NCBI GenBank assembly: GCA_902779185.1
Contig: CACZAM010000018.1
Location: 1 to 35,708 of the forward strand
From: an uncultured Eubacteriales bacterium
GTDB lineage: Bacteria; Bacillota; Clostridia; Peptostreptococcales; Anaerovoracaceae
DNA: 35,708 bases
Direction of reading: 5' to 3'
Positions 19,241 to 22,760 of the stretch are shown piece after piece. Position 1 is the first letter of the stretch. Each line of letters starts with the position of its first letter. The notes under the pieces are model-generated. The model made no database searches. It saw only the letters and a list, made by a program, of their open reading frames with translations, and had not been told where the DNA came from. The translations under genes were made by a program, and so were the position numbers.

Positions 19241-20359
19241 ATGAAAAAGATACTTATCCCAATCGAAGAAACACAGCGCAGCCTGAAGTCACTCGCATAC
19301 GTGAAGAAGCATTACACTCCTGAAGAAGCTGAACTCGTACTCATGATGATTGATGAGAGGCTCGGCTATTCCGTAAGGACAGATGTTGAGAGTGCTGCCA
19401 TAAAGGAACTTGATGAAAAGCTCGACCTTATAGCTGAAGCACTCGAGGGGTATAAAGTGACAAAACTGTCAGCTGTAGGCAAGGCAGGCGTCAGGATCAC
19501 CAGAGCGGTGCGTGAGACCGGAGCTGATCTCATTATCATGACAAAGTCTTCCAAGGATGACATGCTGAACTCAGTCGGATCGACAGCCGAATACGTGATA
19601 AATAACTCGCCGTGTGACGTTATAATAGTGAGTGAGCAGGCAGGCTCCCGCAATGAATACAGAGGCCTTGTATACAGAACCGCAAGAGGCACTGTCAATC
19701 TCAGGGGACAGCTTGGAGACAAACAGAGTGAATGTCTGCTTCCTAGCGTCAATCAGGACTGCATCTATCACATAAATGTTACGGTCGGAAAAATCAGATT
19801 CTTCCATACCGCATACAATCCGGATACCAGAAACTGGGATCTCCCGCCTATCCCTGGTCAGGAGGTAACTCTGGATATCGCGGCAGGAGAGGCAAGAGAT
19901 ATTCTTGTCAAAGCTGACAGCACTGAAGGAAAGGCTGACAGAATCAGGATAGTCAACAGGGACATGAGAAAAGAGGCCGTGTTCGATTTCAGGATCACAG
20001 CCGCTCCTGCGAATCATGAACCTAAGCCTGCTTCTGAAGAGAAAAAGACGCCGTTCGAGAACCGCGATACGCTCGAAGTCCCGAGGACAGGTATCCCTAA
20101 GAATTTTGAAGCTCCGGAAGTTCCTACATTCATTGCTGAGGCTAAAGCCGAATTCGATGCTCTTGAGAAAGAAATCGCTGAAGCAGCTGTAGCGTCAGTA
20201 GATGCTGTTACCCATGCAGAGAAAGGGACTTCTGAAACAAAGGTTTACGAAGCATCGAGTTTCGTGGATTATCTGGTGGAAGAGACCGGGGATGAGAAAA
20301 CTGAAGCTAAACCGTTAAGTGATTCAGATACAGGATTTTCAGTTGAAATAAACAACTAG
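19241..20359 (+). CDS. Universal stress protein with long C-terminal extension
   Basis: Residues 1-135 of this 372-residue protein are a UspA domain: MKKILIPIEETQRSLKSLAY at the start, an ADLIIMTKSS strand and VGSTAEYVINNSPCDVIIV at the end, the last matching the ATP-binding G(S/T)-x-AE-V signature in part. UspA proteins are normally about 140-150 residues. Here residues about 140-252 add a strand-rich segment with FHTAYNPDTRNWDLPPIPGQ, possibly a beta-sandwich, and residues about 255-372 are acidic, Pro/Glu/Ala-rich and probably disordered. The extension is unrecognised. The gene has its own promoter and ends 88 bases before the SCIFF peptide gene. Cytoplasmic, since no signal or membrane segment is seen. 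Confidence 0.82.
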   Translation: MKKILIPIEETQRSLKSLAYVKKHYTPEEAELVLMMIDERLGYSVRTDVESAAIKELDEKLDLIAEALEGYKVTKLSAVGKAGVRITRAVRETGADLIIMTKSSKDDMLNSVGSTAEYVINNSPCDVIIVSEQAGSRNEYRGLVYRTARGTVNLRGQLGDKQSECLLPSVNQDCIYHINVTVGKIRFFHTAYNPDTRNWDLPPIPGQEVTLDIAAGEARDILVKADSTEGKADRIRIVNRDMRKEAVFDFRITAAPANHEPKPASEEKKTPFENRDTLEVPRTGIPKNFEAPEVPTFIAEAKAEFDALEKEIAEAAVASVDAVTHAEKGTSETKVYEASSFVDYLVEETGDEKTEAKPLSDSDTGFSVEINN

Positions 20360-20385
20360 CATACCGCTAAGCCACCTGCCTCAGA

Positions 20386-20414
20386 TTGACAGAAGCGTGG
20401 CATAATGGTATCCT
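20386..20414 (+). promoter_or_regulatory. Strong promoter of the SCIFF peptide gene
   Basis: A perfect -35 TTGACA (20386-20391), 17-base spacer and TATCCT (20409-20414) preceded by TGG. It gives the small precursor gene a transcription start about 25 bases before the ATG. Confidence 0.65.
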
Positions 20415-20447
20415 ACATATGGATCAATACAGACGGAGGGCGACAAA

Positions 20448-20597
20448 ATGAAGAGAATCAAAACTATCACAACAAGAGATATGGCTGAGTCCAGGGTCAC
20501 AGGCGGATGCGGTGAATGCCAGACTTCATGCCAGTCTGCAAGCAAGACTTCCTGCAGCGTTGCTAATCAGCATTGCGAGCAGCGCAAGGAAAAGTAA
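20448..20597 (+). CDS. scfA: SCIFF ranthipeptide precursor, five-cysteine variant
   Basis: A 49-residue peptide preceded by GGAGGG (20435-20440). The leader MKRIKTITTRDM and the core from Gly19 (GGCGECQTSCQSASKTSCSV) are unmistakably SCIFF, a nearly universal clostridial peptide modified by a radical SAM maturase. Canonical SCIFF peptides have six cysteines; this one has five (Cys21, 24, 28, 36, 43). The fourth, in the usual SACKTSCT block, is Ser32, and the Thr after the fifth cysteine is Ser37. In the Clostridium thermocellum homologue CteA these two positions (Cys32, Thr37) are reported to form the thioether. Any crosslink here must use other residues or Ser37. It lies directly before its maturase gene. 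The cellular role of SCIFF is unknown. Confidence 0.95.
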   Translation: MKRIKTITTRDMAESRVTGGCGECQTSCQSASKTSCSVANQHCEQRKEK

Positions 20598-20607
20598 GAT
20601 GCTTACG

Positions 20608-20638
20608 GCGGCGCTGCGTGATGCAGCGCCGCTTTTTT
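20608..20638 (+). terminator. Terminator or attenuator between scfA and scfB
   Basis: A perfect 10-bp GC-rich stem (20608-20617 with 20623-20632) around GTGAT is followed by six T. It sits 11 bases after the scfA stop and before the scfB ribosome site, with little room for another promoter, so scfB probably depends on read-through and the precursor is made in excess. Confidence 0.92.
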
Positions 20639-20663
20639 CTTTTGCCTCACTTAGGGGAGAGTA

Positions 20664-22088
20664 ATGATACACAAATACAAATTAAACGGATTCAATATGG
20701 TGGTCGACGCGGCGAGCGGTGCCGTTCACTCTGTCGATGAGGTCGCTTATGACGCAATTGAGATGCTGGATGAAGCGGTGTGCAGATCTGACGGCGGTGC
20801 CGGAGAGACTTTTGAAGACAGCAAAATCCTTGAAACTGTTGCGTCGGATATAGCGCATAAGTATGGCATAACTTCAGAGGACGCAAAGGAGACTCTGGAT
20901 GACATAGCCGGATTACATTCAGCAGGACTGCTCTGGTCAGAAGACCCGTTTGAGCAGGCTGCCGATGAGATCAAGATAAAGCAGTCTGTGCTCAAGGCGA
21001 TATGTCTCCACGTTGCACACGGATGTAATATGGACTGCGAATATTGCTTTGCAGGCAAGGGTGATTACAGCGGAAAGAGCGGGATCATGAGCGCTGAGGT
21101 CGGAAAGCGTGCTCTGGATTATCTTGTGGAGAATTCCGGCACCAGAAGGCATCTGGAGGTGGATTTCTTCGGAGGCGAACCTCTTATTAACTGGGATGTG
21201 TGCAAAGAGATAGTCGCATACGGAAGAGAGCTTGAAAAGAAGTATAATAAGATCTTCAATTTTACTCTTACCACAAACGGAGTACTGATCGATGATGATG
21301 TTATAGACTTCACGAACCGCGAGATGGGCAATGTTGTCCTGAGCATGGATGGCAGGCGTGATACTCATGACAGGATGAGACACAGCAAGACCGGAGGCGG
21401 CACATACGACATGATAATGGGCAATTTTAAGGCACTGGTCGATTCCCGCCTGAAAAATGCAGAAAGATCTTCTGAGTATTATATGCGCGGCACATACACC
21501 GCATATAATAAAGACTTTGCAGCTGACGTGCTGGCCATGGCAGATCTCGGCTTCAGAGAGACATCGATAGAGCCCGTAGTGTCAGATCCTGAAGTCCCGT
21601 ACGCCCTTCACGAGGAGGACCTGCCTCAGCTGTATGAGGAGTATGAGAAGCTTGCTCTTGAAATGCTTGCAAGAGAGGAAAAGGGTGATGGCTTCAGCTT
21701 TTACCACTATACGGTCGATCTTACGGGAGGCCCGTGCATTTATAAGAGAGTAGCCGGTTGCGGAGTCGCGACAGAATATCTCGCGGTAACCCCAACAGGA
21801 GATCTCTATCCATGTCACCAGTTTGTAGGTGATGATGACATGATAGTCGGCAATATTTATGACGGAATAACCCATCCTGAGACCGTTGATATATTCAGGA
21901 GCGGCAACAATATCTACACGCGCGACGACTGCAAAGACTGCTGGGCAAGGCTTTATTGCGCGGGAGGATGCGCGGCAAATAATTATCACTCGAACGGCGA
22001 CATCAACAAGGTTTACCGCTTCGGATGCAAACTGCACAGAAAGCGCATTGAATGTGCTCTGATGATGGCAGCCGCACGCGAAAAATGA
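20664..22088 (+). CDS. scfB: SCIFF peptide maturase, radical SAM/SPASM thioether-forming enzyme
   Basis: A 474-residue radical SAM maturase. Residues 1-95 form the RiPP recognition-type N-terminal region (MIHKYKLNGFNMVVDAASG is typical of the family). The radical SAM cluster cysteines are Cys121, Cys125 and Cys128 (GCNMDCEYCF). The C-terminal SPASM region is Cys-rich: ACGVATEYLAVTP-like strand, LYPCHQF, then CKDCWARLYCAGGCAAN and FGCKLHRKRIECAL, expected to bind two auxiliary 4Fe-4S clusters. Family role: reductive SAM cleavage abstracts a hydrogen from the precursor so that a cysteine sulfur bonds to carbon. GGGGAG precedes the ATG. Nothing in the catalytic motifs looks degraded, so the enzyme seems active despite the altered substrate upstream. 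Confidence 0.95.
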   Translation: MIHKYKLNGFNMVVDAASGAVHSVDEVAYDAIEMLDEAVCRSDGGAGETFEDSKILETVASDIAHKYGITSEDAKETLDDIAGLHSAGLLWSEDPFEQAADEIKIKQSVLKAICLHVAHGCNMDCEYCFAGKGDYSGKSGIMSAEVGKRALDYLVENSGTRRHLEVDFFGGEPLINWDVCKEIVAYGRELEKKYNKIFNFTLTTNGVLIDDDVIDFTNREMGNVVLSMDGRRDTHDRMRHSKTGGGTYDMIMGNFKALVDSRLKNAERSSEYYMRGTYTAYNKDFAADVLAMADLGFRETSIEPVVSDPEVPYALHEEDLPQLYEEYEKLALEMLAREEKGDGFSFYHYTVDLTGGPCIYKRVAGCGVATEYLAVTPTGDLYPCHQFVGDDDMIVGNIYDGITHPETVDIFRSGNNIYTRDDCKDCWARLYCAGGCAANNYHSNGDINKVYRFGCKLHRKRIECALMMAAAREK

Positions 22089-22103
22089 TACAATTAAATG
22101 ATT

Positions 22104-22760
22104 ATGAGAACAGCTATACTTGCATCACAGAACAAGAATAAGATCAAGGAAATAAGGGCCATTCTGGAGAAGTACGGGCTCGATGTCATCACGCGTGATG
22201 ACGCGGGGATCCCGACTGACGACATAGAAGAAACAGGCACCACCTTTGAAGAAAACTCACATCTGAAGGCGAGCGTCATAATGGACATGATCGCCGGCGA
22301 TCCTTCACTTGCAAAATACCTTGACAGCCCTGTCATAGCGGATGATTCGGGGCTCATGGTAGACGCTCTCGGCGGAGATCCTGGAGTCTACAGCGCCAGA
22401 TATGCAGGCGAGGGCTGCACTTATGATGACAACAACACGAAGCTGCTCGCCGCTCTTGACGGTGTGCCTGAAAGCGAAAGAACAGCAAAATTCGTTACGG
22501 TGATCACTCTGATCTATCCTGACGGTAAAGATGTTCCGGCTGAAGCGGTGCCTCAGGGTGACAGGTACGTACTTGTCGCGCGCGGAGAGTGCAAAGGCCA
22601 CATCGCAGACTGCAAAATGGGTGAAGGCGGCTTCGGATACGATCCGGTATTCATACCGGAAGGATACAGCAATTCCTTTGCTGAACTCGGAACAGATTTC
22701 AAGAACACCATAAGCCACAGGGCGAAAGCTCTTGCTGAACTGGAGAGACTGCTCGGCTGA
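22104..22760 (+). CDS. rdgB: XTP/dITP diphosphatase (non-canonical purine NTP pyrophosphatase, RdgB/HAM1)
   Basis: A house-cleaning enzyme that hydrolyses dITP and XTP to monophosphates. The start region AILASQNKNKIKEI is the family signature, followed by ETGTTFEENSHLKA, VIADDSGLMVDALGGDPGVYSARYAG, and C-terminal GEGGFGYDPVFIPEG and SHRAKAL. I place the start at the second ATG (218 residues) because the family begins with Met-Arg/Lys; the ATG at 22098 is equally possible and no clear ribosome site separates them. It begins 15 bases after scfB, so it may be expressed with the maturase, though the functions seem unrelated. Length about 220 against about 195-205 for most homologues, from a short internal insertion around YPDGKDVPAEAVPQGDRY. 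Confidence 0.93.
   Translation: MRTAILASQNKNKIKEIRAILEKYGLDVITRDDAGIPTDDIEETGTTFEENSHLKASVIMDMIAGDPSLAKYLDSPVIADDSGLMVDALGGDPGVYSARYAGEGCTYDDNNTKLLAALDGVPESERTAKFVTVITLIYPDGKDVPAEAVPQGDRYVLVARGECKGHIADCKMGEGGFGYDPVFIPEGYSNSFAELGTDFKNTISHRAKALAELERLLG

Follow-up and report, generated by a model that had tools for sequence, protein, structure and literature searches.

The precursor peptide encoded in the DNA studied here has given up the cysteine that is reported to donate the thioether of its family: Cys32 has been replaced by a serine and was then held as serine, and both the maturase and the remainder of the core are under strong selection. Since position 32 is a serine, it follows that the Cys32-Thr34 (or Cys32-Thr37) thioether cannot form here as reported, and the enzyme in this Mogibacterium-related group is probably doing something other than making the reported crosslink. 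In this work, we establish the state of the sequence, its spread, the integrity of the maturase, and the covariation of the peptide with residue 368 of the maturase.

A five-cysteine precursor next to an intact maturase

The window, i. e. the whole stretch of DNA that was analysed, comprises 35,708 nucleotides and is the entire contig 18 of a draft genome that is 79% complete. The open reading frame at 20448-20597 on the forward strand encodes MKRIKTITTRDMAESRVTGGCGECQTSCQSASKTSCSVANQHCEQRKEK, a peptide with five cysteines at positions 21, 24, 28, 36, and 43 (Table 1); position 32, now serine, is where the fourth of the canonical cysteines would stand. Its scores exceed the cut-offs of both the SCIFF precursor profile TIGR03973 (77 bits, cut-off 50) and PF13165 (75.8 bits, cut-off 27). 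We assign this ScfA/ScfB (SCIFF) locus to a ruminant-gut bacterium resembling Mogibacterium. The closest named relatives among the matches listed are ruminant-gut genomes, many of them titled Mogibacterium sp., and their peptides are up to 100% identical. Its profile matches, its position, and its partner gene place the peptide in the ScfA family as a homologue. Taken literally, the name SCIFF does not apply, because it refers to six cysteines in about 45 residues and the peptide has five.

The peptide resembles ScfA/CteA, the precursor of thermocellin, in length, in the leader, in the CGECQTSCQSA-KTSC core with Cys21, Cys24, Cys28, Cys36, Cys43, and Thr34, and in its position directly before scfB, whereas it differs in that serines stand at positions 32 (the donor cysteine) and 37 (Thr37) and that the cysteines number five rather than six. 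This likeness rests on family profiles, with CteA itself lying outside the alignment; a phmmer search with the window precursor gave two chance matches and did not recover the CteA fragment of 5WGG. Measured against the two published versions of the thermocellin ring, the donor Cys32 is absent, the acceptor of the revised assignment, Thr34, is present, and the acceptor of the older assignment, Thr37, is a serine.

Table 1. Features of the scfA-scfB locus, with positions in the window
Feature	Position	Strand	Basis
Sigma-70-like promoter match TTGACA-17-TATCCT, 5' of scfA	20386..20414	+	Motif scan
Ribosome-binding site GGAGG of scfA	20435..20439	+	Direct read
scfA, five-cysteine SCIFF-family precursor, 49 aa	20448..20597	+	TIGR03973 77 bits, PF13165 75.8 bits
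Codons Cys24-Gln25-Thr26, retained C-x-T triplet (candidate site of a relocated crosslink)	20517..20525	+	Conservation of Thr26
Codon 32, Ser AGC replacing the donor cysteine	20541..20543	+	Direct read; AGC/AGT in 86/86 distinct Ser32 sequences
Codon 34, Thr ACT, revised acceptor	20547..20549	+	Thr in 294/294 distinct core DNAs
Codon 37, Ser AGC, acceptor of the older assignment	20556..20558	+	Direct read
Intrinsic-terminator-like hairpin followed by T-run, scfA/scfB spacer	20607..20633	+	Terminator scan, folding
scfB, radical SAM/SPASM SCIFF maturase, 474 aa	20664..22088	+	TIGR03974, CteB 5WGG
Radical SAM motif CxxxCxxC (Cys121, 125, 128)	21024..21047	+	All three in 250/250 maturases
SPASM auxiliary-cluster Cys358, 366, 384, 423, 426, 432, 436, 455	21735..22028	+	Conservation, motif spacing
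Val368, two residues past Cys366 (presumed Aux I ligand); marks Ser32 maturases	21765..21767	+	Column comparison

The maturase gene follows directly at 20664-22088, and its product matches both TIGR03974 (669.8 bits, cut-off 425) and CteB, the Clostridium thermocellum enzyme of solved structure (5WGG; 506 bits, E 1e-150). The likeness to ScfB/CteB (TIGR03974; PDB 5WGG, 5WHY) extends over the full length, includes all cluster cysteines, and leaves the N-terminal region aligned throughout; the differences are Val368, where CteB has serine, and Gly120 beside the radical SAM motif, where CteB has aspartate. The enzyme carries the CxxxCxxC motif as well as the seven-cysteine SPASM motif. The latter, C-x12-G-x4-C, is defined together with the Aux I ligands of anSME in PMC6231123; its first cysteine is Cys366, and the spacing from there onwards fits the published motif. 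Among 281 loci in relatives, a near full-length scfB was present in 226, in each case no more than 272 bases away and in the orientation of scfA, and no scfB was found in 21, two of which were Ser32 loci that both end at a contig border. Thus, the description given in an earlier note on this DNA, a peptide with five cysteines, Ser32, and Ser37 beside an intact maturase, is confirmed by the translation and by the matches to TIGR03973 and TIGR03974.

On the revised assignment, only the donor of the crosslink is lost

For Tte1186a and CteA, in vitro work of 2016/2017 assigned the thioether to Cys32 and Thr37, and later co-expression work (Hudson 2019) moved it to a link between Cys32 and the gamma-carbon of Thr34, as related in two reviews (PMC8326336, PMC8172795). 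Reviews credit two groups with identifying Cys32 as the donor, and one review calls the active form of SCIFF an open question. The earlier note took Cys32-Thr37 as the known crosslink, which holds for the 2016/2017 assignment but not for the one that the reviews report for 2019. Its statement that both crosslink residues are lacking has to be corrected: Thr34, the revised acceptor, is retained, and therefore only the donor Cys32 has been lost. Supported, with the donor Cys32 replaced by serine, is the proposal that the product has to be something other than thermocellin in its reported form.

The relatives speak to the acceptor as well. A group of SCIFF peptides from 17 family codes has Thr26 fixed, as is the case with the Ser32 peptides, and its maturases form a clade with those of the Ser32 group (100/100), but it keeps the donor Cys32 and has at position 37 a glycine, to which no link could be made through a side chain. 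All 80 distinct DNAs of this type combine Gly37 with Cys32, which argues against the side chain of residue 37 as a general acceptor and rules out Thr37 as the family-wide acceptor. The Ser32 group, which has cultured members, also bears on the dispute between Thr37 and Thr34, and it dispenses with the reported donor altogether.

Core variation and spread of Ser32

For the comparison of the cores, we took codons 19-41 of the first unit of each locus and removed identical DNA, which left 294 distinct sequences. Positions 32 and 37 are Cys/Thr in 128 of them, Cys/Gly in 80, Ser/Ser in 85, and Ser/Ala in one, and the combinations Cys/Ser, Ser/Thr, and Ser/Gly do not occur among the 294. Position 32 is either cysteine or serine in every case (294/294), never alanine, threonine, or glycine, and it is cysteine in all 208 distinct sequences outside the Ser32 group. 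Cys21, Cys24, Cys28, Gln29, Ser30, Ala31, Lys33, Thr34, and Ser35 are identical throughout (294/294), and Cys43 is present in all 280 cores that are long enough to include it. Thr26 is found in 86/86 Ser32, 80/80 Cys32/Gly37, and 105/128 Cys32/Thr37 sequences. Within the 86 distinct Ser32 DNAs, the codons for positions 21-36 vary and the sole amino acid change is Cys36Ser, in three of them.

This latter change belongs to one genus (code g42), in which Cys36 has become serine in three of four genomes (L275, L364, L365; L361 keeps Cys36). Two types of serine codon, TCA and AGC, are used, four core cysteines are left beside an intact maturase, and the maturases of this genus score 683-699 bits. 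Elsewhere, an additional Cys46 in a CEQC or CEKC tail restores the number of six cysteines (e. g. in L102, L109, L117, and L263). It occurs in 17/83 Ser32/Ser37, 2/71 Cys32/Gly37, and 0/126 Cys32/Thr37 distinct sequences, and in none of the 42 readable tails of the window's genus (one further tail is cut). A compensating sixth cysteine is therefore not the general answer to the loss of Cys32.

In the genus of the window, the peptide is present in 43 of 47 genomes, and all 43 have Ser32, together with Ser37 in 42 and Ala37 in one. The four genomes without the peptide, drafts that are 68-94% complete, also lack the maturase. The alignment of relatives thus identified Ser32/Ser37 as the clade-wide pair that had been considered in the earlier note; the opposite outcome, relatives with Cys32 and Thr37 and errors in the present sequence, was looked for in the relatives and did not occur. 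Sequencing or assembly error and drift as causes of Ser32/Ser37 are ruled out by this clade-wide conservation. The wider idea that the serines are such errors or that a second peptide with Cys32 exists in the same genome draws some force from the incompleteness of the draft (about 79% complete), but with a single SCIFF match and no second one in the window's genome, with 18 genera and 78 whole genomes that carry Ser32, as do isolate records, and with its error part already refuted, its chance is vanishingly small.

These 18 genera are among the 74 genera read of the window's family (f1), i. e. all genera with a match in the draw from this family. The other families were represented by at least one genome per family with a match in a draw of 391 genomes of the class, and additional low scorers, additional relatives, and 80 named loci were also read, giving 79 family codes, the window's included. 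None of the 78 further family codes covered showed Ser32. By the group codes, the Cys32/Gly37 type occurs in 17 families and the Cys32/Thr37 type in 65, and SCIFF is widespread, with matches in 322 of the 391 sampled genomes of the class Clostridia. The window peptide was the query that recovered the 80 named loci, a set skewed towards its own type (77 Ser32, 3 Cys32) and overlapping with the other genomes read. All searches rest on one profile, which very divergent peptides would escape, and the draws are samples.

Isolate records with Ser32 include Mogibacterium pumilum ATCC 700696 (chromosome), M. timidum ATCC 33093, Baileyella intestinalis, and Gallibacter intestinalis. In the part of the literature that was searched, we found no report of Ser32 SCIFFs; Ser32 ScfA is an apparently unreported variant in the known SCIFF family. 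Standard annotation labels all these peptides as 'six-cysteine' and in this way masks the variant. In a pig-gut survey, all sactipeptide-like precursors are said to have the six-cysteine motif (PMC7738495). Both Baileyella intestinalis and Mogibacterium kristiansenii (L095, L102), the type strains of which are described in that paper, are without Cys32: the former has five cysteines, the latter has six only by virtue of a cysteine in the tail. The 24 strains counted in PMC7738495 do not necessarily include these two.

Covariation with residue 368 of the maturase

We compared 250 near full-length ScfB proteins, of which 94 belong to Ser32, 70 to Cys32/Gly37, and 86 to Cys32/Thr37 peptides. The cluster cysteines from Cys358 to Cys436 are kept in all 250, and Cys455 is kept wherever the locus reaches that far, with the one exception of a Cys32/Thr37 enzyme that has valine. 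All cluster cysteines are kept in all 94 Ser32 maturases, save for ends cut by locus borders. Valine at position 368 is found in 94/94 Ser32 maturases, in 0/70 Cys32/Gly37 maturases, and in 3/86 Cys32/Thr37 maturases (L220, L245, L246), i. e. in 3 of 156 enzymes outside the Ser32 group. The residue is otherwise serine, alanine, or cysteine, both in the Cys32/Gly37 enzymes (70/70) and in the Cys32/Thr37 enzymes (83/86). Position 368 is the only column in which one residue reaches at least 98% within the Ser32 group and no more than 4% among the other enzymes. By the same measure, the Cys32/Gly37 group has no such column, and neither have 41 of the 46 clades of at least 15 sequences. Of the five clades that do, four lie within the Ser32 group and have up to three such columns each, among them a clade of 55 members with three. 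Hence, fixation of a column is not unique to position 368. Moreover, Val368 alone does not dictate the state of the peptide, because three Cys32/Thr37 maturases also carry it.

Cys366 is presumably a ligand of Aux I, which would place residue 368 near the Aux I site. In CteB, this cluster has an open site that is bound by a substrate cysteine, as stated in PMC6231123.

A second residue of the maturase varies with the peptide: Asp120, directly before the radical SAM motif, is present in 86/86 enzymes with Thr37 peptides and in 0/70 with Gly37 peptides, and the residue is mixed with Ser37 peptides. In the window, codon 120 is located at 21021-21023.

One or two historical events

The maturases of the Ser32 and the Cys32/Gly37 types form one clade with full support (100/100) in a careful tree of 85 sequences. 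In this tree, the Ser32 maturases are a grade basal to Cys32/Gly37 (supports 80/65, 76/47, 88/77), which would mean that Cys32 was lost and then regained. However, these branches are weak, a constraint for monophyly of Ser32 was not rejected (p-AU 0.211), and in a FastTree of all 250 sequences Ser32 is a clade with a local support of 0.918, while the Cys32/Gly37 clade of that tree has a printed value of only 0.122. Historically, Ser32 arose in one event or two, and the number of genomes does not translate into a number of events; as the change may have happened once, the covariation counts reflect ancestry.

This has consequences for the argument in the earlier note that positions 32 and 37 changed in separate events and are therefore coupled. 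The argument is weak, since both positions may have changed on a single branch, in one or two events at most; what stands is that the state of the peptide follows the type of maturase. This can be seen in the genus coded g69, which has both types of cassette: two with Ser32 and Val368 (L294, L344) and seven with Cys32 and serine or alanine at position 368. The latter cassettes, of the Cys32/Gly37 type, are L337-L342, except L343, and L351. Residue 368 tracks the state of the peptide in this genus, in line with a joint transfer of the two genes, and the sequences suggest that scfA and scfB may be exchanged as a unit.

What the maturase may do without Cys32

Given the near-invariant core and the retention of all cluster ligands, the locus should still perform radical chemistry. 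The selection on scfB appears to be strong, with a dN/dS of about 0.038 relative to the closest usable relative, a value that comes from the 2 usable pairs of 231, both involving one genome that apparently carries two locus names; the remaining pairs are saturated or nearly so. A maturase that no longer crosslinks in the Ser32 group, with peptide and enzyme persisting as a binding pair or decaying, would account for the absence of the reported donor. This idea is a long shot in view of the radical SAM and SPASM cysteines, which are all kept, the nearly invariant core, the low dN/dS from the one usable comparison, and the joint absence of both genes in the four draft genomes that lack either.

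We tentatively favour, as possible though somewhat short of probable, that ScfB is still active and that the crosslink is made from a retained cysteine, for which Cys24-Gln-Thr26 is the best candidate. In such a scenario, ScfB would bind the leader and form a radical at one of the core residues, and the thiolate would come from a retained cysteine in place of Cys32. The spacing and the direction of Cys24-Gln-Thr26 match those of Cys32-Lys-Thr34. The next candidates would be links from Cys28 to Thr34 or from Cys36 to Thr34; Cys36 cannot be a general donor since it has also been lost in three of the four g42 genomes. The spread of Ser32, the near-invariant core, the low dN/dS, the cluster cysteines, the joint absence of the two genes, Val368, the cassettes of genus g69, and Thr26 (86/86) all speak for a relocated crosslink. 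On the other hand, Val368 in three Cys32/Thr37 enzymes, the fixed columns in subclades of the Ser32 group, the possibility of a single event, and the grade formed by the Ser32 maturases in the careful tree speak against it. The C24-x-T26 triplet is no special gain of the Ser32 peptides, as it is equally fixed in the Cys32/Gly37 group, and the invariance of Thr34 without the reported donor fits a link from Cys28 or Cys36 to Thr34, or an ether, just as well.

Radical SAM/SPASM maturases like that of the window also act in the freyrasin (PapA/PapB) and NxxcA ranthipeptide systems, the cores of which are unlike SCIFF and which contain Cys-Asp and Cys-Asn links. In NxxcA, the link joins Cys23 to Asn20, and the donor can thus follow the acceptor, according to a review. 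The behaviour of the related maturase PapB can be used on both sides: It modifies altered spacings, some of them incompletely (PMC9413430), which counts for a relocated crosslink, and it was strict about spacing in earlier work, as a review has it, which counts against.

A different possibility, rather unlikely in our judgement, is that the Cys32 thioether is nowhere physiologically essential, that the function rests on Cys21, Cys24, Cys28, and Cys43, perhaps as further crosslinks or as a metal or redox site, and that Cys32 and Cys36 are dispensable extras, with the Cys32 ring formed in vitro or in E. coli only. The cysteines in question are indeed those that never vary (294/294 for Cys21, Cys24, and Cys28, and 280/280 for Cys43), Cys32 has been lost in one group, and Cys36 has also been lost in three of the four g42 genomes, with two serine codons and next to maturases of 683-699 bits. 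The disagreement between the two published crosslink assignments points in the same direction. Yet Cys32 is present in all 208 sequences outside the Ser32 group and must matter there, and two groups found it to be the donor, according to the reviews. The Ser32 relatives show that selection can maintain the locus even when the Cys32 ring is missing.

Finally, the oxygen of Ser32 might take over the role of the sulfur: ScfB would then join Ser32 by an ether bond to Thr34 (or residue 37), giving an oxygen analogue of the thermocellin ring. This is quite improbable. That position 32 is only ever cysteine or serine (294/294) would be in agreement with an ether, but the exchange of cysteine for serine is the easiest conservative change, requiring one base, and Cys36, though no known donor, has become serine in g42 as well. 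We know of no ScfB that makes an ether, and this counts against the idea. Similarly, Val368 lies near the presumed Aux I site, where binding of a thiolate would no longer be needed, but a thiol would be more strongly activated by binding to Aux I than a hydroxyl. The more specific version, that the Ser32-group ScfB swaps the thioether for a Ser32 ether and that Val368 reshapes the thiolate-receiving Aux I pocket, is marginally less probable still. Radical SAM maturases of RiPPs do form C-O bonds in the cases of rotapeptide (PMC9062424) and darobactin (PMC9055067), as described in the two papers. The precursors and maturases of these two differ from ScfA/ScfB, and they serve as a functional model for the ether alone. 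If the ether were true, one maturase family would have switched the bridging atom from sulfur to oxygen by way of a cysteine-to-serine exchange in the substrate.

Organization of the locus

Upstream of the gene pair lies a gene for a universal-stress-domain protein, and downstream of it one for a Ham1/RdgB protein. Homologues of these are present in 53 and 18, respectively, of the 83 distinct Ser32/Ser37 loci, most of which end before reaching the latter, and neither is found in the 71 Cys32/Gly37 or the 126 Cys32/Thr37 loci. No additional RiPP enzyme was noticed among the listed frames of the window, with four proteins scanned. Sigma-70-like sites occur three times in the region 20200-22200 versus 2.5 times (sd 1.9) in shuffled sequences, which is not significant alone. 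Likewise, the count of terminator-like sites in this 2-kb region (1 versus 1.4 in shuffles, sd 1.3) is not significant by itself; the 66-nt spacer between scfA and scfB has a folding energy of -31 kcal/mol (z -4.56). The spacer hairpin probably sets an excess of precursor over maturase. In a crude scan, a terminator-like hairpin was detected in 94/94 Ser32, 43/70 Cys32/Gly37, and 61/86 Cys32/Thr37 loci.

Several loci depart from the simple arrangement of one peptide and one maturase. In L101 and L325, the tail of scfA past Cys43 is unlike that of the relatives (CDRGAACRAAPLF), perhaps due to a frame change close to the stop. Two separate scfA loci, both Ser32/Ser37, are present in the isolate RGIG2439 (L103 and L137) and in G136 (L321 and L336); the pair L103/L137 has the same peptides as the pair L321/L336, and RGIG2439 and G136 may be one genome. 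In L036, L191, L242/L253, and L243, two complete SCIFF units are joined head to tail in one frame of 95-112 aa, and all of these double units are of the Cys32/Gly37 type.
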